Positions 44,626-54,972 of a stretch of DNA of 64,000 nucleotides are shown here, piece after piece. The notes below the pieces were generated by a model. It had not been told where the DNA came from and did no database searches. It saw nothing but the letters and a program-made list of their open reading frames with translations. Within the stretch, counting starts at the first letter, position 1; every line of letters begins with the position of its first letter. Source of the DNA: Streptomyces kanamyceticus (GTDB lineage: Bacteria; Actinomycetota; Actinomycetes; Streptomycetales; Streptomycetaceae); NCBI RefSeq assembly GCF_008704495.1, contig NZ_CP023699.1, positions 3,348,001 through 3,412,000 of the forward strand, in the 5' to 3' direction. The translations under genes and the position numbers were made by a program.

Positions 44626-44697
44626 GCCCCCGTAGCTCAGGGGATAGAGCAACGGCCTCCGGAGCCGTGTGCGCAGGTTCGAATCCTGCCGGGGGCA
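44626..44697 (+). tRNA. tRNA-Arg (anticodon CCG)
   Basis: A full cloverleaf: acceptor GCCCCCG/CGGGGGC, D arm GCTC-AGGGGATA-GAGC, anticodon arm ACGGC-CTCCGGA-GCCGT (anticodon CCG, reads CGG) and T arm GCAGG-TTCGAAT-CCTGC, discriminator A. CCA is not encoded (ACCC follows). It is the integration target of the island to its right: its 3' part is the attL core. Confidence 0.97.
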
Positions 44698-44699
44698 CC
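44657..44699 (+). repeat. attL core: 3' part of tRNA-Arg
   Basis: From the anticodon loop through the discriminator and CC. It recurs at 54874-54916 with a single difference (T44668 vs C54885). Confidence 0.92.
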
Positions 44700-44715
44700 C
44701 TTTATGAGGTGCCCA

Positions 44716-44758
44716 AAGACCCCGTCACCAGCGGAAACGCTGAGGCCGGGGTCTTTTT
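44716..44758 (+). terminator. Terminator after tRNA-Arg (attL side)
   Basis: AAGACCCCG pairs with CGGGGTCTT, followed by TTT; the loop contains AGCGGAAACGCT. A related copy follows attR (54933-54972). Confidence 0.88.
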
Positions 44759-44814
44759 GCGTTTGCAGGCATGTGCAGCTCTGCGCCGTCCAAAGCGGCC
44801 GTATGTCGGGGCTC

Positions 44815-44831
44815 GTGGACGACCTGTGGAC
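44815..44831 (+). other. Candidate integrase arm-binding sites, left end
   Basis: GTGGAC-GACCT-GTGGAC, two direct hexamers one helical turn apart (11 bp), 116 bases inside the attL core. The right end has the same arrangement at 54793-54809. Confidence 0.55.
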
Positions 44832-44937
44832 GGGATCTTGGAGCGTTTCCGCAGGTGGGATCAACTATCCGCAGCCCCAGGCCCGCTGAGCGCCGTGGCC
44901 GCCCGTCACAGCAACTGGGCGTGTCAGAGGCGTGCGC

Positions 44938-45579
44938 TTGGATGAGCGAGTGGCCGTTCAAGACGTTGCTCGGCAGCTGCCCGAGATATCCGTGCTCCGC
45001 GAGCACTGCCGTTCCTTGGCAGTACTGGAGGCCATCCTGAGCCCTGAGTGGGAGGCCCGGTACTACTCCTTCAACGACCGATGGTCCGAGACGGCGTCGA
45101 TGGCCTCGATGAACGGGGCGGGCGACGAATTCTCGATCGTCTTCTCCCTCGCCGGCGCCTACGTTCGCGGGTTCGCCCACGAATCACCGATGAGCCCCTA
45201 CGCGGAGGACGGACCTTGGCACGGGGTGCTCGACGACGTCCCCGATGCCTTCCGATCATGTGTCGAGGAGCCGGCGTTCTGCGACAAGGACGATATGCCC
45301 GTCGTCACAGCATGCACGTGGAGAGAGACGGATGATGTGGCTTGGAAGACGGGGAGGATCGACTACCCCGACGAGCAGCCGGACGACCCGGACGGCGCGG
45401 AGTACCTCTTCCAGCTGCTCGTGAACCGCTCACCGGAAGCGTTCCAACGGTGGGCCGAGGACTACTACGAGGCTCCGGTCGCAGTGGAGGCCGTGGTCCA
45501 CGTCTTCGCTTCCCGTCCTCTGAGCGACTCAGTCGTCAACGCGTTGAACCCAGAGATCACCGTGGCCGATCTCGCCTAG
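44938..45579 (+). CDS. Conserved hypothetical protein, possibly immunity/cargo, with early stop
   Basis: 213 residues, acidic. Start TTG 44938 has GAGG seven bases upstream; GTG 44932 would leave only one base. Seen: SPEWEARYYSFNDRW, SIVFSLAGAYVRGFAHES, YYEAPVAVEAVVHVF. I recall similar small acidic proteins of unknown role, sometimes near polymorphic-toxin loci, but cannot assign a family. A TAG at 45577 ends it; the frame goes on for 11 codons (DLAEIGYRLS) to TAA 45610, so the TAG may be a nonsense mutation of a GAG. Confidence 0.6.
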   Translation: MDERVAVQDVARQLPEISVLREHCRSLAVLEAILSPEWEARYYSFNDRWSETASMASMNGAGDEFSIVFSLAGAYVRGFAHESPMSPYAEDGPWHGVLDDVPDAFRSCVEEPAFCDKDDMPVVTACTWRETDDVAWKTGRIDYPDEQPDDPDGAEYLFQLLVNRSPEAFQRWAEDYYEAPVAVEAVVHVFASRPLSDSVVNALNPEITVADLA

Positions 45580-45632
45580 GACCTCGCGGAGATCGGCTAC
45601 CGGCTGAGCTAAATCCGGCGAGGAATGACGAA

Positions 45633-45656
45633 GCCCCTGGACAGAACACCAGGGGC
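45633..45656. terminator. Terminator between the left cargo gene and the integrase remnant
   Basis: GCCCCTGG pairs with CCAGGGGC around an 8-base loop, between converging genes. Confidence 0.8.
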
Positions 45657-45676
45657 CTCAGTTGACGGAACCGGTG

Positions 45677-46720
45677 TCACTCGTACTCGCGCAGCAGGTC
45701 CTCAATGCGCCGGTTGGCCACCTCGTGACGACCGTCGAGGCACTTCGCGTAGCGGGTCAACAGGACCTCAACGCTGTTGTCGGCGCGCTCAGCTACCTCG
45801 GTGGGGTCGACGCCGGCGTTGAGCCACGTGGAGAGCGCGGAGTGCCGGAGGTCGTACGGCCGACTGGCGAGCGGCGAGGCTGCCACCGCGGTGGGGAGCG
45901 CGAGAGGCGGGCCTCCTGCCACACGCGGTAGATAGGTCGAGGAGGGCACGACGGCCCCCTTCTCGCTGAAGAAGAGACGCCCGTCGGAAGCGGTGCCAAA
46001 GGTGTCCAAATGCTCGCGAAGCATGCCCACGAGCTGGGGCGGGATCGGTACGCGCCGGACGTCCTCTGTGGGGCGGCTCTTGAGCCCACGGTCATCGTGG
46101 GTCTCCCCCGTGTCGGTCCACTGTCTGCCGACCGAGGGACGCGTTCGGTGGAGGAGCGCAGAGCCCCAGCCCGCGTCTGGCATGACGAGATCTGTCTCAG
46201 CAAGGCCGACCGCCTCAGCAGGAAGGAACCCGCCGAAGTACATGCAGGCGAAGAAGCCGACGAGGCGCCGGCCACGAGCGCGGCGGTAGCCACCGATGTA
46301 GGAGACGGCTGTGAGCAGGTTGCGCGCCTGCTCCGGATTGGCCACCACGCGCGGATCCACCTGGTTGGACACCTTGGGCTTCTGCCAGCGAACGGCAGTG
46401 ATGGGGTTCTCTTGCAACTCCCCCAGGTCGACCGCATAGTTCGCTGCATTCACCAGGGTCCGCCGCTTACGCCGCACCGTTTCGGCAGCCGCGGCCGTGC
46501 CGTCGAGCTTCAGCTTGAGTGAGTAGAGAACCTGCCGAGCCACCGCAGGATCGGCCAGGTCCGCCAGAGATCGGGATGCCTTGGCAACCCAGTGCAGCAC
46601 GTTCAGAACATCGTCCGGGACTTCGCGGGAGTCGGGGCCGGGCAGGAGGAAGGCCCAGTTCCTGAGCGCACGACGCAGGGCCGTCTGGACGATGCGTTGC
46701 AGGGCAACTAACTCGCCCCC
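45677..46720 (-). pseudogene. Defective tyrosine recombinase (integrase) remnant
   Basis: About 345 residues align in memory to the Streptomyces tyrosine integrases of ~480-500 residues. Present: core-binding helices (ALRRALRNWAF, DGTAAAAETVRRKRRTLVNAANYAVDL), box II RPYDLRHSALSTWLN, and the Tyr nucleophile in LLTRYAKCL. Defects: the N-terminal ~110 residues are missing; the box I Arg is Leu (codon 46223-46225, FGGFLPAEAVGL where GLRPxEAxAL is usual); the GH of box III is DN (45776-45781). An open frame continues to 46915 but the extra N-terminal residues lie antisense to an unrelated gene fragment. Strand exchange is very unlikely. Confidence 0.8.
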
Positions 46721-46783
46721 GCCATTCTGACGACGGGAAGCCTGGACGAGGCGGAGCAGCACAGCCGGGAGATCTGCGGCTAA

Positions 46784-47026
46784 TCGGAGATCGATTACGA
46801 GCGCAACAAGGCCAGTTGGCTCAGTACTCAGCCAGACCAAGAGCTCGACCCCGAGGCCACACTCCGCCAGCTCGGCGAGTTCGAAACGGATGCCCGCGGG
46901 CGAGGCGTCACCCACACGACGTTCCGCAGGATCACCGAAGCCCTAGGACTTCACGGCGCTCAGCGCCAAGGCCTCAGAGCCCTCCTGCTCAACAGCCGTC
47001 CGGAGCAGTACCAAGCCCCGCTTTAG
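46784..47026 (+). pseudogene. Orphan C-terminal gene fragment
   Basis: About 80 codons open from 46784 (just after TAA 46781) to TAG 47026, with no start codon. The read is IDYERNKASWLSTQ... with a charged, natural-looking composition, containing LGEFETDARGRGVTHTTF and RITEALGLHGAQRQGLRALL. I do not recognise the family. It looks like the tail of a deleted gene; its 5' part probably went with the integrase N terminus in the same deletion. Confidence 0.4.
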
Positions 47027-47503
47027 CACCTCCCAGCCGAAGCCTGAGTAACAACTTTCTCTACTGGTTCAAGCACCCGGCTGCGCTCCGCTCCGCCGGG
47101 CGGGCTTCCCGGCTCCGCTCGGGGCTGCGCCGCCGCCCGCCCACTGTGGATAGGCCCGGAGGTCATGAGTCGAGCACCCGACGAGTACGCGGCCACCGGT
47201 CACAGACGATGCCTCCGGCGGGGGATCGGCCGGCACCGGGTGGGAGGAAGCGCCGTTCCCGGCCGCGGGCACATCGTGGCGAGCGTGGCGTCCACCGCCG
47301 ACCCAGGCAGAGCCGAGCAGTCGCGGCCCATGGCGTCCAGGTCGTTCGTCCAGTTGGGCGCTCCACCTGGACGCCATGAACCACGCCCGCTCCACGGTGT
47401 GTGGGTCGACGGCGGACGGGATGGAAGCTGGAGGAGATCTGTAGTTGCTGTGGGGATACAAGTACCGTGTCGAACTTGGCGCCCAACTGCGTAGGAGCTG
47501 GCT
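47027..47503. other. Gene-free stretch containing a large imperfect palindrome
   Basis: The left 250 bases are a very GC-rich decayed-looking sequence. The palindrome at 47287-47420 is centred at about 47353. The core arms ATGGCGTCCAGGT and ACCTGGACGCCAT (47330-47342, 47365-47377) are perfect, with the outer 43 bases per side matching at about two thirds of positions. No convincing gene. Confidence 0.7.
47287..47420. repeat. Large imperfect inverted repeat
   Basis: Two ~65-base arms. Because of the symmetry, both strands give similar open frames here (MASRS... and MASRW...), which are not evidence of a gene. Possible relic of a transfer/replication origin or an inverted duplication. Confidence 0.65.
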
Positions 47504-48163
47504 TTGATTCCGATCGTGGACATCGACGTTGACCCATCGTTTCCAGCGAACTTGGCGATGGGCTGGCCGGACGAGGAGGACGTGAGCGAGGAGGGCTACG
47601 GCTACTTCCATAACGTCTGGGCCATGGGGGATGTCACCCGCAGCGAAGCCCTCGCCATGATCGAGGAAGAGCAACATCTCGTAAGGCTTGTTGACCAAGC
47701 AAGCCGAACCGATGCGGAATTCGAAGCTGTCGCCAAGGCCGTAGAAGCTGGCGAGCTTGACTACCTTCCTGACGACTACGCCACGCGGTATGCCGACAGC
47801 GAACTCATCCAGCTCGTAACCGTGTTCGCGGACGAGGGATCGCCACTCGACACGCTCGAACTCGGGGTGGCTGGCCTCACATTCGCCCTGTCCTCCGTCA
47901 GGTGCTTCACCGCAGCGAGTTGCCGTAGACACTGTTCCGACGGCTCTTGGTCAGACCGGCCAGTGGTCTTCTTTGCTGCGGAAAGATCCACCGTCCAATG
48001 GCTCACACCCATGGTGCGCGAGAGTGGGTGCGGTTTCGCAGACGGCAGCGAGCGAGCCGACAAGCTGTTGATCGTGGAAGCCCCATCGATCACCAACTTC
48101 ATGACACTCGCCAACCTCATCGTCCGGCTGACCGAACGACAGGACAGCTCCAAGCCGTCGTAA
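47504..48163 (+). CDS. Island hypothetical protein (219 aa)
   Basis: Start TTG 47504 has AGGAG six bases upstream, which supports expression. An acidic, soluble protein: DIDVDPSFP near the start, many Asp/Glu in residues 20-100 (EEEQHLVRL, DYLPDDYATRYAD), three Cys in CFTAASCRRHC. No known motif, no membrane helix. It converges with nothing and precedes the MORC operon by 170 bases on the same strand. Base composition is intermediate between the chromosome and the defence operon. Function unknown. Confidence 0.55.
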   Translation: MIPIVDIDVDPSFPANLAMGWPDEEDVSEEGYGYFHNVWAMGDVTRSEALAMIEEEQHLVRLVDQASRTDAEFEAVAKAVEAGELDYLPDDYATRYADSELIQLVTVFADEGSPLDTLELGVAGLTFALSSVRCFTAASCRRHCSDGSWSDRPVVFFAAERSTVQWLTPMVRESGCGFADGSERADKLLIVEAPSITNFMTLANLIVRLTERQDSSKPS

Positions 48164-48221
48164 CGAGTCCGCCGTTCCCGGGCCTGACCTCCAACTAGGG
48201 GTCCGCATCATCGAGCTGAGT

Positions 48222-48243
48222 GATCGTATGTATTTCTACGATC
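48222..48243. promoter_or_regulatory. Candidate operator/promoter of the restriction operon
   Basis: GATCGT-N10-ACGATC inverted repeat in an A+T-rich patch about 90 bases upstream of the MORC gene start; contains TATGTAT. Could bind a regulator or mark the promoter; no regulator gene is in the island. Confidence 0.4.
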
Positions 48244-48332
48244 CTCATGCGTAATCTGTTTGCCACCGTCGCGCTAGGTCGCTGTGCCACTGCTCAGGGG
48301 AGAGCTCCCGTGGACCGGCGACAGGGGGAAAA

Positions 48333-50762
48333 ATGACATCTGAGGCAAACCAGACATCACCTGAAATTCTCGACTTAACGCCATCCCCTCGACTCCTTGA
48401 GGTGTTGGGCGATATTCCGTACAAGCCGTGGCAGTGCTTAGCCGAGCTAATCGATAACGCGTTTGACGATTTCCTTTCCGACGCCTCCGGGGATCCGCAG
48501 AATCCCGGCGATGTCCACATCACGCTCCCGCGGCAAGGATCCCCCGAGGGAGACGCCTTCGTGTGCGTCGCCGACAACGGGCGCGGGATGAGCCGCACTC
48601 AGCTAGAACTAGCCTTGCGCGCCGGATACAGTCCTAACAGCAGATATGGCAACCTTGGTCTATTCGGTATGGGGTTCAATATCGCTACCGCTAACCTAGG
48701 TGCGATAACTGAAGTTCGAACCACCCGCGCTGGCGACGAAACCTGGCTCGTCGCCGAAATCAACTTTCCAGAGATGCAGCAAAACAAGAGCTTTGCCGTA
48801 CCTCTGCGCCAGGAGCCAAAAGACGATCCTGGGCATCACGGAACTGAGATCACCGTGAGCAAGCTGCGGCCCGACAAGCGCTCCGCGCTACGACGATCGC
48901 AGGTTGCCAGCACCATCAGGGATCAGCTGGGCCGAGTCTATTCCTATCTTCTGCGCGATAAGCAGGCGGTACCCGAGATTCCCGGTACCTCCTTGGCCGG
49001 ACGCGGTTTCCATCTTTACGTAAACGGGACAGCCGTCAAGCCACGCCTGCCCTGCATCTGGAGCTCGTCTCGTACGGTCACGTACCAAGGTTCTGAGATC
49101 AATGCCGTCCAGCACATCGATCACGATCTCACTCCGGCTTGGGCGTGCCAAGACTGCGGTCACTGGCACCGCGTCTCCCCCGAAAAATGCGTCGAGTGCG
49201 GCAGCGAAAACCTCGACCTACGCGAGCGAAAGATCGTTGGCTGGGTCGGTATCCAGCGTTACCTACACCTCAGCGATTTTGGGGTTGACTTCCTGCGCAA
49301 CGGTCGAAAAATTCTCGTGTCAGATCGGGATATTTTCAATTGGGAGAACCCTGATACCGGAGAGAGTGTAGTCGAGTATCCAATTGAACTCGGCGCAACA
49401 CAGGGCGGCCGAATCGTAGGTGAGATTCACCTCGATCATGTTCCCGTCACGTATCAGAAGAACGATTTTAAGAGAGATTCCCGTGACTGGATCACGGCGG
49501 TACAGCTCGTCAGAGGTGAGGGGCCCGTGCAACCTCGCAAGGCTGCGAACCTCAAATACGAACCCAACACCTCCCCAATCGGGAAGCTCTTCAACGCGTA
49601 CCGACGGAACGATCCAGGTACCAAATGCCTCATCCCTGGTGAGGGCGGTAAGGCCCTTCACGACAAGGCGCGGGAATGGGCTTCGTTCTTCCGACAAGGT
49701 CTGCCCGAGTTCTCGACTGACGAGAAGTGGTACGAGGCTGCCCAAAAAGCAGACAGGCACAGGACAGAAAAAAGCCAGGAGAGGCCAGTACCTACTCGCG
49801 CCGATGGCACCAGCCAAGTGAGTGCTGGCACTGCTGGTTCACGGCCGACAAGTGATGTACTCATTCGAACGGGTCTCGATTTCGAAGACGACGTCGCTAC
49901 TACCGATGCCTCAATTGCATCAGAGCCCTCTACCCTTGACGCCGTTGAGACAGAGGAACAGCGTTTTACTCGATACCGCGACCATGCAAGCTCAATGGCA
50001 GATCTAAGCGGCGCCGTGAGTGTAGCTCATCTAGGTAAGCGTCATATCACTGTATACGACACCACCGAGCCCTTGATTGACCACTCAGGCCGAGTAACAC
50101 CATGTGTTTCTAGAACGGGGCGAGGCAACACGGTTGAGGTATACGTAAATAGCGATCATGAGGTTTTCAAAGAATTTGGGCGCGATCCTCGTGACTATGC
50201 CTTTATAGAGATCGCCGAGGTTTTACGGGCTCTAGCGAACACGAGCGATAGCACCGCGCGAGTGGCCGCTGAAGTGACCACTCAATTCCCCGACCAACGC
50301 TTTACCGATGCATCGATGCGTGAACGAGCAACCGTCATCCTTAATCGAGTTCGCGATCAGCTAGAGACAGTCGGCTCGCCTCACGCCCCACTCCTATGGA
50401 ACAGTCTGCCTCAGGTCGAGAAGCAGGCAGCCGAAAAGCACGCAGCGAGTACTGAACCGAGACTGGTGTGGGATGCCGCAACGCTGAGCGGCGAGTTCAT
50501 ACCCCACCTCACTCCAGACGGAATTGCCGCACTGGTCCGCGCTCATCCTGAACTACTACTGGACGACGCAGTCTTCGCGACAAAGTGGTCGACCTGGAAC
50601 GACCCCGAGGCCCGCGCATCTCAAGTGAGTCGTCTAAGTCGCCTACTTGAAGTTATCGGCTCTTTCCTCGCCAATACCAGTGGCAATACAAGAGTAGATC
50701 TCGCGATGATGAGACTGACACTTGACGCAATCTCCACGGAGATGGCGGAGGCCTCAGAATGA
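48333..50762 (+). CDS. MORC-type GHKL ATPase with zinc ribbon (restriction system)
   Basis: 809 residues. GHKL fold with N-box LAELIDNAFDD (37-45), G1 VADNGRGMS (79-87), G2 YGNLGLFGMGFNIA (105-118) and HGTEITV (169-175). An S5-like domain follows, interrupted by a zinc ribbon with C272, C275, C286 and C289. The region after ~480 is charged and mostly helical. Bacterial MORC-like ATPases are known from comparative genomics as partners of restriction-modification operons; they are thought to be ATP clamps that sense or load on DNA. ATG 48333 follows AGGGGG. The stop overlaps the helicase start (ATGA). Codon use is more A+T rich than the chromosome. Confidence 0.88.
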   Translation: MTSEANQTSPEILDLTPSPRLLEVLGDIPYKPWQCLAELIDNAFDDFLSDASGDPQNPGDVHITLPRQGSPEGDAFVCVADNGRGMSRTQLELALRAGYSPNSRYGNLGLFGMGFNIATANLGAITEVRTTRAGDETWLVAEINFPEMQQNKSFAVPLRQEPKDDPGHHGTEITVSKLRPDKRSALRRSQVASTIRDQLGRVYSYLLRDKQAVPEIPGTSLAGRGFHLYVNGTAVKPRLPCIWSSSRTVTYQGSEINAVQHIDHDLTPAWACQDCGHWHRVSPEKCVECGSENLDLRERKIVGWVGIQRYLHLSDFGVDFLRNGRKILVSDRDIFNWENPDTGESVVEYPIELGATQGGRIVGEIHLDHVPVTYQKNDFKRDSRDWITAVQLVRGEGPVQPRKAANLKYEPNTSPIGKLFNAYRRNDPGTKCLIPGEGGKALHDKAREWASFFRQGLPEFSTDEKWYEAAQKADRHRTEKSQERPVPTRADGTSQVSAGTAGSRPTSDVLIRTGLDFEDDVATTDASIASEPSTLDAVETEEQRFTRYRDHASSMADLSGAVSVAHLGKRHITVYDTTEPLIDHSGRVTPCVSRTGRGNTVEVYVNSDHEVFKEFGRDPRDYAFIEIAEVLRALANTSDSTARVAAEVTTQFPDQRFTDASMRERATVILNRVRDQLETVGSPHAPLLWNSLPQVEKQAAEKHAASTEPRLVWDAATLSGEFIPHLTPDGIAALVRAHPELLLDDAVFATKWSTWNDPEARASQVSRLSRLLEVIGSFLANTSGNTRVDLAMMRLTLDAISTEMAEASE

Positions 50763-52438
50763 GCGAATCATTCGTGGCGCCTGAATTCCTTCTAGATATC
50801 GGCCCTATAGCCTTTACGAAGCAAGTGGAGCGACTCCTACTGCACCTTGGATTCAGCGACGTGACAAACGTCGATGGATCCAATGACCAAGGCGGTGACC
50901 TGATCGCCCACCGCAAAAGACAAAAGTGGGTGTTCCAAGCGAAATGGAAGTCGCGAGGAACGGTTCCGCCATCAGCTATCGACGAAGTCCTGAACGCCAA
51001 ATCTTTTTACCGCGCCGACCGGTCCGCCATAGTCACCAACGCTCGCTACGGGCCGAAGATGGAACAGCGACGCGCTGAACTTCGGCGGGTTGGGCACCCA
51101 ATCGAGCTGTGGTCGGGCCGTGAACTGATTGACCTGTACAACAGCGATCAAGCATGCGCGAAGCGTCTGCCGGCCAGGGACTTACGCGCATACCAGGCTC
51201 AAGCTTTTGAGGAGGTTGTTCAAAAGCTTGAGGAGCAAAACCAATCTCTCCTAATCTTGGCAACAGGACTTGGCAAAACGGTTATTGGTGGCGAGGTTAT
51301 AGCGCGCCATCTTGCTCAACATCCTGGTGACAAGGTACTGGTCGTCGCCCACACGAAAGATCTCGTGGAACAGCTGGAGCGAGCACTCTGGTTTCACATT
51401 CCCAAGACCGTTCGCACACAGCTTCTAACTGGCGATCATAAGCCGGACGACCTACGCGGAATTACGTGCGCCACAGTTGCAAGCGCCTTAAACTACATCC
51501 GGAGTGGCTATCGCCCCGGAATCGTAATGGTTGACGAAGCTCATCACGTATCGAAGAATGGCAATTTTGCGGAACTGCTAGACATACTTTCCGAGGTGCC
51601 GCGGTTCGGGGTAACTGCTACCCCTTGGCGCGGCGACAGATTTGACATTCGCAATCGGTTCGGCGATCCAAGTTTTACTCTGGGGATCGACGATGGTATG
51701 CGCCTTGGGTACCTGGCAGAGGTCCACTACAAGCTGTTCTCCGACAACATCGACTGGGACTTCGTCCGGCAAGCCAGCAAGCATAGTTACAGTGTACGAG
51801 ATCTAAACTCTCGTCTTTTCTTGCCTGAACGTGATGAAGCCATTAGAGATCGTCTGATTGAGGCCTGGTCACGCACTCGTGAGCCCAAAGCAGTGGTCTT
51901 TTGTCGAACTGTAGAGCACGCTGAGCGTATCGCGTCACTCTTGAATCAAGTTCCTCAATGGAAAAATGTAAAATCCGTTCATGCGGGGCTGAACCGGCGC
52001 GAACGTCAACTACGCCTTATGGCCTTTCGCCAGGGCGAGATCCCCATCATCACAGCCGTCGATGTGCTGAACGAAGGTGTGGATATTCCAGACGTCAACA
52101 TCATCTGCTTCGCACGGGTCACGCACAGCCGGCGCATCTTCGTGCAGCAGTTGGGCCGCGGACTCCGTCTGCGCTCCGGTAAGAGTCATGTCGAGGCTCT
52201 GGACTTTGTCAGCGACATCAGGCGCGTTGCTGCAATCATGCGCCTTAGAGAGAAGGTCTCTGCCGACGAGATCGAGACACTTCGACTCAGAACCATGGGA
52301 ACACGTTTTGAGTTCACTGACGCCCAAGCGGAGTCTTTGATGCGGGAATGGATCAAAGATGCTGCGAGCCTGGAGACGGCACTCGACGAACACCGCCTTC
52401 AGTTCCCTGACCCTGACGGACTTCAGGAGGGAGCGTGA
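50759..52438 (+). CDS. Mrr-type nuclease fused to DEAH superfamily 2 helicase
   Basis: 559 residues. N-terminal Mrr-like PD-(D/E)XK nuclease (10-130): VERLLLHLGFSDV, catalytic Asp47 in DQGGDLIAHRK, Gln60-x-Lys62 in VFQAKWKS. Then an SF2 helicase: ATGLGKTVIG (168-177), DEAH at 259-262, VTATPWRG, VDVLNEGVDIPDVNIICF and QQLGRGLRLRSGK, all intact. Such fusions translocate on DNA and cut it. Coupled by ATGA overlap to the MORC gene and by GTGA to the next. It would be the cutting and motor subunit of the system. Confidence 0.92.
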   Translation: MSESFVAPEFLLDIGPIAFTKQVERLLLHLGFSDVTNVDGSNDQGGDLIAHRKRQKWVFQAKWKSRGTVPPSAIDEVLNAKSFYRADRSAIVTNARYGPKMEQRRAELRRVGHPIELWSGRELIDLYNSDQACAKRLPARDLRAYQAQAFEEVVQKLEEQNQSLLILATGLGKTVIGGEVIARHLAQHPGDKVLVVAHTKDLVEQLERALWFHIPKTVRTQLLTGDHKPDDLRGITCATVASALNYIRSGYRPGIVMVDEAHHVSKNGNFAELLDILSEVPRFGVTATPWRGDRFDIRNRFGDPSFTLGIDDGMRLGYLAEVHYKLFSDNIDWDFVRQASKHSYSVRDLNSRLFLPERDEAIRDRLIEAWSRTREPKAVVFCRTVEHAERIASLLNQVPQWKNVKSVHAGLNRRERQLRLMAFRQGEIPIITAVDVLNEGVDIPDVNIICFARVTHSRRIFVQQLGRGLRLRSGKSHVEALDFVSDIRRVAAIMRLREKVSADEIETLRLRTMGTRFEFTDAQAESLMREWIKDAASLETALDEHRLQFPDPDGLQEGA

Positions 52439-53013
52439 GCGATATCCCTGACCTGATTAGACGCCAGGTCATTGGCGAGGTCTACCGCCAAGCTGACACG
52501 CTCGGTTGGGATTCGCTCAGCATGGTAGAACGAACCGCGCAATACAACCTGTGGTTAGACGACGATCAAGTCGGTGTCGTCCTCACCCGGTTCATGCCAC
52601 GTGAACGCACTCGCATGTGGCTGAAGGACGTGCCAATGAAACACTACAACCGAGCCCGCAGTGGCATCGGTCCATATGCTGATTTGGTTCGGACTCCCTT
52701 GCCCAGCGCCGGGCAGATTGCGGCTCAGGCCCTGGGCCAGGAAGCACTAGTAATCGACGGATCGGTTCGAGAAAAACCCAACCGATGCCGAGTTCTCCTC
52801 GGGCCCTCGGAAATCCTTATGTTCTGGGACAAGGTACGGAACCTTCAGAACCTAGTTTGGGCGGGCTTGAACACCCTTGTAGACGGCGGATCTCCGCCCA
52901 TCTTGGTACTGACACTTTTGCGGGGCGAGAAGTTGTCAGATAGCGAAATAGGGAGGCATCAGAAACTGTGTCACCGCGCCGGCCTTGAAGTACGCCACGT
53001 CACCGTACGGTGA
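52435..53013 (+). CDS. Unknown third component of the MORC restriction operon
   Basis: 192 residues; GTG 52435 overlaps the helicase stop. Soluble, mixed alpha/beta. Short recognisable stretches are DTLGWDSLSMVERTAQYN, RFMPRERTRMWLKDVPMKH, LGPSEILMFWDKVRNLQNLVW and a C-terminal RAGLEVRHVTV. I recognise no family and no nuclease, ATPase or methylase motif. Its place between the helicase and Vsr genes, with coupled translation, makes it a true component. Candidates are a DNA-recognition or regulatory subunit (inference). Confidence 0.82.
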   Translation: MSDIPDLIRRQVIGEVYRQADTLGWDSLSMVERTAQYNLWLDDDQVGVVLTRFMPRERTRMWLKDVPMKHYNRARSGIGPYADLVRTPLPSAGQIAAQALGQEALVIDGSVREKPNRCRVLLGPSEILMFWDKVRNLQNLVWAGLNTLVDGGSPPILVLTLLRGEKLSDSEIGRHQKLCHRAGLEVRHVTVR

Positions 53014-53084
53014 GGACCTGGAGCAGCGCAGGGCGGATTTTGGCTGCCTAAGAATGTTAGGCATTGTCGATCGGCAGTAGAAGT

Positions 53085-53576
53085 ATGCGGGATCCAGAAG
53101 TTACCAGTCGAATCATGTCAGCGGTGGGCAATCGGAATACCGCCCCCGAGATCACACTTCGGAGCGCACTCTGGAAAGAAGGACTTCGATTTCGAGTCAA
53201 GTCCGCGCTGTTCGGGAAACCCGATATCGTTTTCCCGGGGCCGAAAGTGGCAGTCTTCGTCGACGGCGATTTCTGGCATGGAAACGCTTGGCGCATTCGC
53301 GGCATGGCATCTTTTGACGCTCAATTCGAACACATAAATAACGGAGAACGTTGGAAAGCGAAGATTTGTAGAAACATGGAGCGCGATCTCATCGTCAGCA
53401 ATACGCTTTCTGGTGACGGATGGGTCGTGTACAGAGTATTCGAATCTCGTCTCAAAGAAGACCTCGTGAGCGTGATCAGCGAGATCTCGGCTCTCGTCAG
53501 GTCTAGACGTAAAGTCAGCACAGTACAAAGCGACGAAAACGGTCGCACGAAGGGGAATCTATGCCAAGGTCGGTAG
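53085..53576 (+). CDS. vsr: Vsr-family very-short-patch-repair-type endonuclease
   Basis: 163 residues. Signature features: RIMSAVGNRNTAPEITLRSALW (N-terminal), RFRVKSALFGKPDIVFPGPKVAVFVDGDFWHGN with the catalytic Asp and FWHG, followed by RNMERD and a C-terminal GDGWVVYRVFES. Vsr nicks T:G mismatches left by deamination of 5-methylcytosine and normally accompanies Dcm-type methylases. ATG 53085 gives a family-like start; TTG 53064 adds seven residues and has no better ribosome site. Its last 16 bases overlap the methyltransferase gene. Confidence 0.9.
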   Translation: MRDPEVTSRIMSAVGNRNTAPEITLRSALWKEGLRFRVKSALFGKPDIVFPGPKVAVFVDGDFWHGNAWRIRGMASFDAQFEHINNGERWKAKICRNMERDLIVSNTLSGDGWVVYRVFESRLKEDLVSVISEISALVRSRRKVSTVQSDENGRTKGNLCQGR

Positions 53577-54730
53577 AACTCTTCGCCGGCGGAGGCGGCA
53601 TGGCGCTCGGTATGCTAAAAGCCGGATTTGAGCATGAGCAGCTCGTTGAGAGAGATCCGCGTGCCTGCTCAATCTTGCGCCAGAACGCTGCCACTTCACC
53701 TACGCTCTGGAGCGAGGACAGCATCCGAGAGATGGACGTGGTCCATTGGCTCAAGTCGATGCGGGATTCAGGACTTCAAGATATCGACCTAATCGCTGGC
53801 GGCCCCCCTTGCCAGCCATTCTCGATAAGTGGAGCTCACGCGGGCGAGAACGACGAGCGGAACATGTTTCCTGCGGCAGTCGAGACTGTCCGGATTCTAC
53901 GACCCAAGTGCTTCGTCTTCGAAAATGTCCCTGGATTGCTCCGGCCATCGTTCGAACCCTACTACCAGTACGTAATAGATCAGCTGACCAAGCCGTCAGT
54001 CCGCCCTCGGAAGGGCGACGAACACTGGTCTCAGCATCAGGCCAGGATCAAGGAAACCAAGCGCCCTAGCCTCAGCTACCGCGTTCACAGACAGATAATT
54101 GAGGCGGCCGATGTCGGGGTTCCCCAGACACGCAAGCGTGTGTTCTTGATCGGCACTCGTGCAGATATTTCATCTGCCGACCATTGGGTCGATGTCCCCA
54201 CGACACATAGCAAAGACACTCTGCTTCGAGACCAGTGGGTTACTGGAGCCTATTGGGAGACGCGGAATCTACCAAAGCCTCCAATGCCCGAGAACGTTAA
54301 GGCCCGCGTAGAACTACTGCGCCGTGAGGACGCACTGTTCGAATCGTCCCTGCCCTGGCGGACTACACGAGATGCGTTGGTGGGGTTGCCTGATCCTCTA
54401 GAGGCGGCGGAAGCTGTCGGGGTTCTGAACCACAAGGGAATTCCAGGCGCTCGTACTTACACTCGCCACCAAGGAGGCTGGATCGATTGGCCAGCGAAAA
54501 CCCTGAAAGCCGGAGTGCATGGGGTCGCTGGTGGCGAGGCAATGATCCGTTTCAGTGATAATTCGGTTCGATACCTTACCGTTAGAGAGTCGGCTCGAAT
54601 TCAGACATTCCCTGACAACTACGAGATGCCAGGAAGCCGCACGGCCATGATGAGAGCTATTGGTAACGCTGTAGCGGTTGAAGTTGCCGCTCTCATCGGC
54701 CAGCAGCTGCGCAAGACGTTGGATCTCTGA
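53561..54730 (+). CDS. DNA cytosine-5 methyltransferase
   Basis: 389 residues with the C5 motifs in order: I VELFAGGGGMALG (5-17), IV GGPPCQPFS (80-88) with catalytic Cys84, VI ENVPGL (121-126), VIII QTRKRVFLIG, the target-recognition region (about 215-300), IX RYLTVRESARIQTFPD, and X RAIGNAV. It would protect host DNA in the recognition sequence of the system. Start ATG 53561 has AAGGGG upstream and overlaps vsr. Last gene before attR. Confidence 0.95.
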   Translation: MPRSVELFAGGGGMALGMLKAGFEHEQLVERDPRACSILRQNAATSPTLWSEDSIREMDVVHWLKSMRDSGLQDIDLIAGGPPCQPFSISGAHAGENDERNMFPAAVETVRILRPKCFVFENVPGLLRPSFEPYYQYVIDQLTKPSVRPRKGDEHWSQHQARIKETKRPSLSYRVHRQIIEAADVGVPQTRKRVFLIGTRADISSADHWVDVPTTHSKDTLLRDQWVTGAYWETRNLPKPPMPENVKARVELLRREDALFESSLPWRTTRDALVGLPDPLEAAEAVGVLNHKGIPGARTYTRHQGGWIDWPAKTLKAGVHGVAGGEAMIRFSDNSVRYLTVRESARIQTFPDNYEMPGSRTAMMRAIGNAVAVEVAALIGQQLRKTLDL

Positions 54731-54792
54731 CGTCTCGCCCAGCGCCCGAACTCTGCCAACCCCTCAGCGGACGAGACGTGCCCTCAAGGCCT

Positions 54793-54809
54793 GTGGACTA
54801 TTCGTGGAC
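54793..54809 (+). other. Candidate integrase arm-binding sites, right end
   Basis: GTGGAC-TATTC-GTGGAC, same hexamer, direction and 11-bp spacing as at the left end (44815-44831), 65 bases from the attR core. Confidence 0.55.
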
Positions 54810-54873
54810 CGGTTGCCAAATCCAGCCCGACGCCACGTCCCTGGCCAGGGGGAGCACCGTCCTGCGAAGCCCT

Positions 54874-54916
54874 CTCCGGAGCCGCGTGCGCAGGTTCGAA
54901 TCCTGCCGGGGGCACC
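54874..54916 (+). repeat. attR core: copy of the tRNA-Arg 3' part
   Basis: 43 bases identical to 44657-44699 except C54885. The 5' half of the tRNA is absent, so this is not a gene. Confidence 0.92.
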
Positions 54917-54932
54917 TCGTAGTAGGTGTCCG

Positions 54933-54972
54933 AAGACCCCGCCAGCAGCGCTTTCGCTGAGGACGGGGTCTT
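54933..54972 (+). terminator. Stranded tRNA terminator after attR
   Basis: AAGACCCCG pairs with CGGGGTCTT; inner CAGCG/CGCTG. Matches the terminator at 44716-44758 in stem and overall sequence, so it is probably the original tRNA terminator, displaced by integration. Confidence 0.8.

Follow-up and report, generated by a model that had tools for sequence, protein, structure and literature searches.

A five-gene MORC ATPase operon on a tRNA-bounded island of Streptomyces kanamyceticus as a likely mobile restriction-modification system

In the Streptomyces kanamyceticus DNA analyzed here (contig NZ_CP023699.1, positions 3,348,001 to 3,412,000; this whole 64,000-nucleotide stretch is called the window), five intact genes, all on the + strand, occupy positions 48333–54730, and an earlier note, made from the sequence alone, had proposed that they form a restriction operon built around a MORC ATPase. 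We think it likely that this operon encodes a mobile restriction-modification system that depends on ATP. The helicase gene overlaps the MORC gene by 4 nucleotides (nt), the third gene overlaps the helicase gene by 4 nt and the methyltransferase gene overlaps vsr by 16 nt; the single gap, before vsr, measures 71 nt from the ATG start of that gene and 50 nt from an upstream TTG (53064). The GC content is 54–57% at 48001–54000 vs. 64–76% in the remaining 2-kb steps of the window. We scanned seven window proteins against Pfam, PADLOC and NCBIfam (E ≤ 0.001; for the helicase and the methylase, the PADLOC results are the best 25 matches), and the five-gene cassette was confirmed as first described, both in its coordinates and linkage and in the families to which its proteins had been assigned. 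The genes and domains of the operon are as follows (lengths in amino acids, aa):

48333..50762, + strand: MORC-type GHKL ATPase of 809 aa with a zinc ribbon and a putative S5-like region (HATPase_c_3 at residues 30–154, above cut-off)
49146..49199, + strand: four-cysteine zinc ribbon of the MORC protein, Cys272/275/286/289
50759..52438, + strand: fusion of an Mrr nuclease to a superfamily II DEAH helicase, 559 aa (Mrr_cat; ResIII at 142–289; Helicase_C at 366–471)
50798..51136, + strand: Mrr_cat domain of the fusion, residues 14–126 (Pfam PF04471, E 1.4e-16)
52435..53013, + strand: third core gene, of an unnamed family, 192 aa, GTG start
53085..53576, + strand: Vsr-type endonuclease, 163 aa from ATG or 170 aa from TTG 53064 (TIGR00632 above cut-off, PF03852; Vsr domain 10–76)
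53561..54730, + strand: C5 cytosine DNA methyltransferase, M.Eco29kI-like, 389 aa (PF00145, DNA_methylase)

Relatives were retrieved via the third protein, which gave 38 distinct loci (the window, L001-L003, L022-L036, L056-L073 and L080; L021 was left out of all counts as a duplicate of L002), a set biased towards that protein. Synteny of the middle genes, on which the earlier note had made its proposal depend, was found among these relatives: MORC, helicase and third protein follow one another in this order on one strand in 36 of the 38 loci, the exceptions being L027 and L068. In those 36 loci the spacing within the trio ranges from a 4-nt overlap to a 20-nt gap; in L060 the first third-protein copy lies 17 nt from the helicase, and a spacing value of 1561 belongs to a second copy. 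When the third protein (E ≤ 0.001), the helicase (E ≤ 1e-60) and MORC (E ≤ 1e-10) were searched separately in 293 genomes of the order, each returned the identical 18 genomes, that of S. kanamyceticus included, with an additional MORC-like match elsewhere in genome G208. The helicase and MORC searches lift the bias for these 293 genomes only, and at such strict E-values weaker relatives without partners would escape detection. The third protein was present in 17 of 392 genomes of the genus and 9 of 296 of the class (the genome sets overlap), and on 296 genomes across the phylum its profile found the genome of origin and one weak partial match. On plasmids, the helicase search at E ≤ 1e-60 gave matches in four records (Rhodococcus, Pseudosulfitobacter, Ruegeria and Deinococcus), all of which carry the trio, with an IS3 transposase separating MORC from the helicase on the Pseudosulfitobacter plasmid. 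Taken with the chromosomal loci, these plasmids place the trio in Actinomycetota, Pseudomonadota and Deinococcota.

Residue conservation was read from 36 aligned loci; a further alignment (A1) excluded L035 and L065 together with the L027 fusion and the second copy of L060. The window MORC protein has all four ATP-binding motifs required of a GHKL domain, and E38/N42, DxGxG (81–85), GLFGMG (109–114) and HGT (169–171) are invariant in all 36, as are the four zinc-ribbon cysteines. The MORC-specific motif of the S5 domain, GhXhhpXXRhl, is matched by GVDFLRNGRKI (317–327) at seven of eight specified positions, Lys326 replacing a hydrophobic residue; a lysine occupies that position in 30 of the 36 loci. 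The predicted structure of the 809-aa protein, with a mean predicted local distance difference test score of 41.9, is too low in confidence to judge whether an S5 fold follows the GHKL domain. An MzaB-type GHKL profile scored the window protein at 16.5 bits, over 49 residues only, vs. 97.5 bits for the protein of locus L068. MORC-like proteins at L120:925-2859 and L151:3467-5875 begin with a helix-turn-helix (by annotation in L151, by eye in L120) and have no helicase alongside; by eye, the GHKL Glu and Asn positions of the L120 protein look lost.

The fusion protein is similarly intact, with D47, Q60 and K62 of its Mrr domain and, in its helicase part, residues including G172-K173-T174 and the DEAH box (D259, E260, H262) invariant across the alignment. 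E29, D54, W71 and H72 of Vsr (170-aa numbering) and Cys84 of the methyltransferase are invariant as well; from what is known of these families, the invariant GHKL, Mrr, helicase, Vsr and methylase residues are predicted to be catalytic. The ten best PDB sequence matches of the helicase include RadD, XPBII and RAD25, and its best PADLOC match is PbeA (E 6.1e-27), followed by mREase_IV, a type IV methyl-directed enzyme (E 2.1e-26), to which the similarity is confined to residues 158–499, that is, to the helicase part.

The third protein, which the earlier note had left without a family, gave no match at E ≤ 0.001 in Pfam, PADLOC or NCBIfam. Its N-terminal half is helical and holds the invariant residues R60, W62, K64, D65, K69 and R73, and its C-terminal half is PD-(D/E)XK-like without conserved acids. 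The catalytic acids and lysine of that fold were not found conserved in the 36 loci, where the sole acidic column conserved at 90% or more, D65, lies outside the C-terminal half; in the Deinococcus protein, the family profile recognizes the N-terminal part only (profile positions 6–75 of 200, E 1.8e-20). The domain also occurs in other settings. It forms the C-terminus of a protein kinase in a genome of the genus to which S. kanamyceticus belongs (L027:13625-16198), on a contig that lacks the other core genes, and is fused to a PIN_8 domain in L060; a PIN_8 gene follows the third protein in two alphaproteobacterial loci. Locus L068, with its MzaB/C/D-like proteins, has this third protein too, along with Vsr and a methylase of the same type. 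PIN_8-like proteins, fused to the third protein, beside it or elsewhere near the operon, were seen at L060:4840-6381, L148 and L149:10202-11281, L069:318-1802 and L025:5949-7919.

The kinase and PIN_8 partners would suit an abortive or toxic defense, in which the complex is set free when methylation is lost or blocked or when a phage is active, and the cell dies; the small protein would be a trigger domain able to connect to other effectors such as PIN or kinase. The Deinococcus copy can be read the same way: on plasmid pDrdI of Deinococcus wulumuqiensis (L150:2145-15868) the trio and a methylase lie near genes annotated as nucleotidyltransferase, E2/UBC, Mov34 and SAVED, and these four look like a cyclic oligonucleotide-based antiphage signaling system. 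We nevertheless consider this reading quite unlikely for the window, as neither a PIN protein nor a kinase nor any other obvious toxin is among its seven scanned proteins, and their catalytic parts are those of DNA enzymes.

The five genes fall into two evolutionary modules. Over 24 dereplicated loci (12 of the 36 were removed at >90% helicase identity), pairwise protein identities correlated at 0.90–0.97 within the trio, at 0.84 between Vsr and methyltransferase and at 0.38–0.55 between the two groups; without dereplication, the values were 0.93–0.98, 0.90 and 0.65–0.70. Given the helicase, the Vsr-methyltransferase partial correlation was 0.79, which none of 2000 relabellings reached, vs. 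−0.14 and −0.03 for the third protein and MORC with the methyltransferase. For example, L022 and L057 are 68–69% identical to the window in the helicase and 39–40% in the methyltransferase, and for L070 the figures are 58 and 54%. Based on these correlations, the trio forms a unit of its own, and Vsr goes with the methyltransferase, as one would expect if its task were repair. Vsr and a methyltransferase lie within the retrieved stretch in all 36 trio loci, in eight relative arrangements, and the exact gene order of the window recurs in 7 of the 38 loci. The restriction reading of the earlier note is partly supported.

The same correlations bear on a role in DNA repair, in which a MutL-like ATPase would act with Vsr and the helicase on mismatches. 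MORC is a relative of MutL, which stimulates the Vsr enzymes of Neisseria gonorrhoeae (PMC6116569). This account is scarcely credible here, since Vsr co-evolves with the methyltransferase rather than with MORC (partial correlation given the helicase 0.79 vs. 0.16), and since the operon is mobile and patchy and its fused Mrr nuclease keeps invariant active-site residues.

The modular structure is also what one would expect if the trio attacked DNA with foreign modifications, in the manner of type IV enzymes, with methyltransferase and Vsr as a separate co-travelling modification cassette. Many Mrr-family enzymes attack modified DNA, and both the eight arrangements and the mREase_IV match of the helicase fit such a scheme. 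We regard it as unlikely, because all 36 complete trio loci retain a nearby methyltransferase with the same invariant columns, an enzyme that a purely type IV system could do without, and because the mREase_IV similarity lies outside the Mrr domain, in the helicase part.

The methyltransferase points to a probable target. Within CCGCGG, M.Eco29kI places its methyl group on the second cytosine (PMC3039593). The window enzyme is 40.8% identical to the pECO29 methyltransferase at 94% coverage, with 22 of 36 residues identical in the presumed target-recognition segment that immediately precedes motif IX (residues 291–326 of the window enzyme) vs. 25 of 75 in 205–290. Methyltransferases of different clusters are about 40% identical, yet they have this segment in common, 18 of its 36 columns being invariant across 24 loci vs. 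7 of 86 in 205–290, and it is also present in the Mza-like locus L068. Among 37 records, five stand-alone relatives were chosen by hand, and the four that are annotated (pECO29, Halomonas, Xanthomonas and Corynebacterium) all adjoin an Eco29kI-family endonuclease, the fifth (Neisseria) record carrying no annotation; the Ruegeria trio locus (L149) has a borderline Eco29kI-like gene annotated as a GIY-YIG nuclease (30.7 bits, cut-off 30.8). Several points weigh against reading the site from this segment: the catalytic region 70–132 is nearly as similar to pECO29 (36 of 63), C5 methylases commonly have part of this segment, and in the RHQGGWID stretch the window clade deviates from it. On balance, the site is probably CCGCGG, and if it is constant across cassettes, methylase cassettes could be exchanged without retargeting the trio.

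In the restriction-modification reading that we favor, the C5 methyltransferase would mark host DNA, most likely at CCGCGG, and the MORC ATPase, the Mrr nuclease-helicase and the third protein would form one effector that attacks DNA without the mark. The third protein, with its putative pseudo-nuclease fold and conserved basic helical motif, may dock the complex on DNA or sense the unmodified site; the helicase would then translocate using ATP, a MORC dimer may clamp or loop the DNA, and the Mrr domain would make the cut. Vsr would stand outside the attack and repair T:G mismatches left by deamination of methylated cytosines.

The operon lies on an island roughly 10.2 kb long, absent from the earlier note, that is bounded by tRNA sequence and carries an integrase:

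44626..44699, + strand: tRNA-Arg (CCG), the island integration site (ARAGORN)
44657..44755, + strand: left direct repeat (attL-like), the 3′ part of tRNA-Arg and the following terminator-like hairpin (repeat search; 99 nt, 85% identical to 54874–54972)
45677..46915, − strand: tyrosine integrase, 412 aa, GTG start (matches XerC weakly, E 2e-4, and nothing in Pfam)
54874..54972, + strand: right direct repeat (attR-like), a remnant of the tRNA-Arg 3′ end (repeat search)

By eye, the repeats have one mismatch in their first 43 nt. A search with the right flank found no empty integration site. In L066, a protein adjacent to the operon is 85.6% identical to the island integrase over residues 80–412, and the helicase is only 52% identical, which indicates that related integrases carried diverged cargo. 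A 219-aa open reading frame between integrase and operon (47504–48163) has no Pfam, PADLOC or NCBIfam match at E ≤ 0.001. GCCGGC occurs 25 times in the window against 76.7 expected from 5-mers, and 9 times against 9.0 inside the island (44701–54874), as if the host avoided this palindrome and the island were a recent arrival; other palindromes are likewise low in the window (e.g., CGCGCG, 77 vs. 123.6 expected). The integrase island, the plasmid copies and the patchy spread (18 of 293 genomes) would also suit selfish stabilization, in which the effector kills post-segregationally once the methylase dilutes out and phage defense is secondary. As an account of the operon in its own right this is very improbable, and it is compatible with defense rather than exclusive of it.

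MORC operons were predicted to be restriction systems from their gene neighborhoods by Iyer, Abhiman and Aravind (2008; PMC2292703). The accessible part of that paper describes type 1 operons that, like the window, have a MORC GHKL ATPase and a Rad25-like superfamily II helicase joined in one protein to a domain of the restriction-endonuclease fold. Frequent though not obligatory neighbors in these operons are Vsr and a DNA cytosine methylase, both of which the window operon has; the text names no third conserved small protein, though the unnamed X and Z domains of the figure legend may include one. Mza-type systems have a GHKL ATPase, a superfamily II helicase, a PD-(D/E)XK protein (putative in the window) and a C5 methylase in common with the window. 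Eco29kI has a methyltransferase of the same family, including a segment of the GARxYxGHTGS..D.PxKTLKAGxHGVPGGE type, but cuts with a single GIY-YIG endonuclease, and neither an ATPase nor a helicase nor a third protein is annotated on pECO29. CglI and NgoAVII employ other nuclease and helicase families than the window operon and are not known to have a GHKL ATPase. They are like it in that a separate DEAD-family helicase/ATPase drives site-specific cleavage alongside a methylase, three genes being named in the accessible part of the source (PMC4267653). Among the papers searchable, we found none testing a MORC operon with a nuclease-helicase fusion, in line with what the earlier note had stated.

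The cassette is probably a kind of phage defense. It is compact, its core trio is delimited and its methylation site is probably CCGCGG; a short list of invariant residues is at hand for the third subunit, which had not been described before, and relatives occur in the strains Lentzea sp. NBRC 102530, Streptomyces sp. uw30 and S. prasinopilosus NRRL B-2711. The 2008 prediction can therefore be tested directly. Should the third protein turn out to read the state of DNA, one domain would connect several kinds of defense effector. Since the eukaryotic MORC chromatin proteins have been proposed to descend from proteins of bacterial MORC operons, these operons are also of wider interest.
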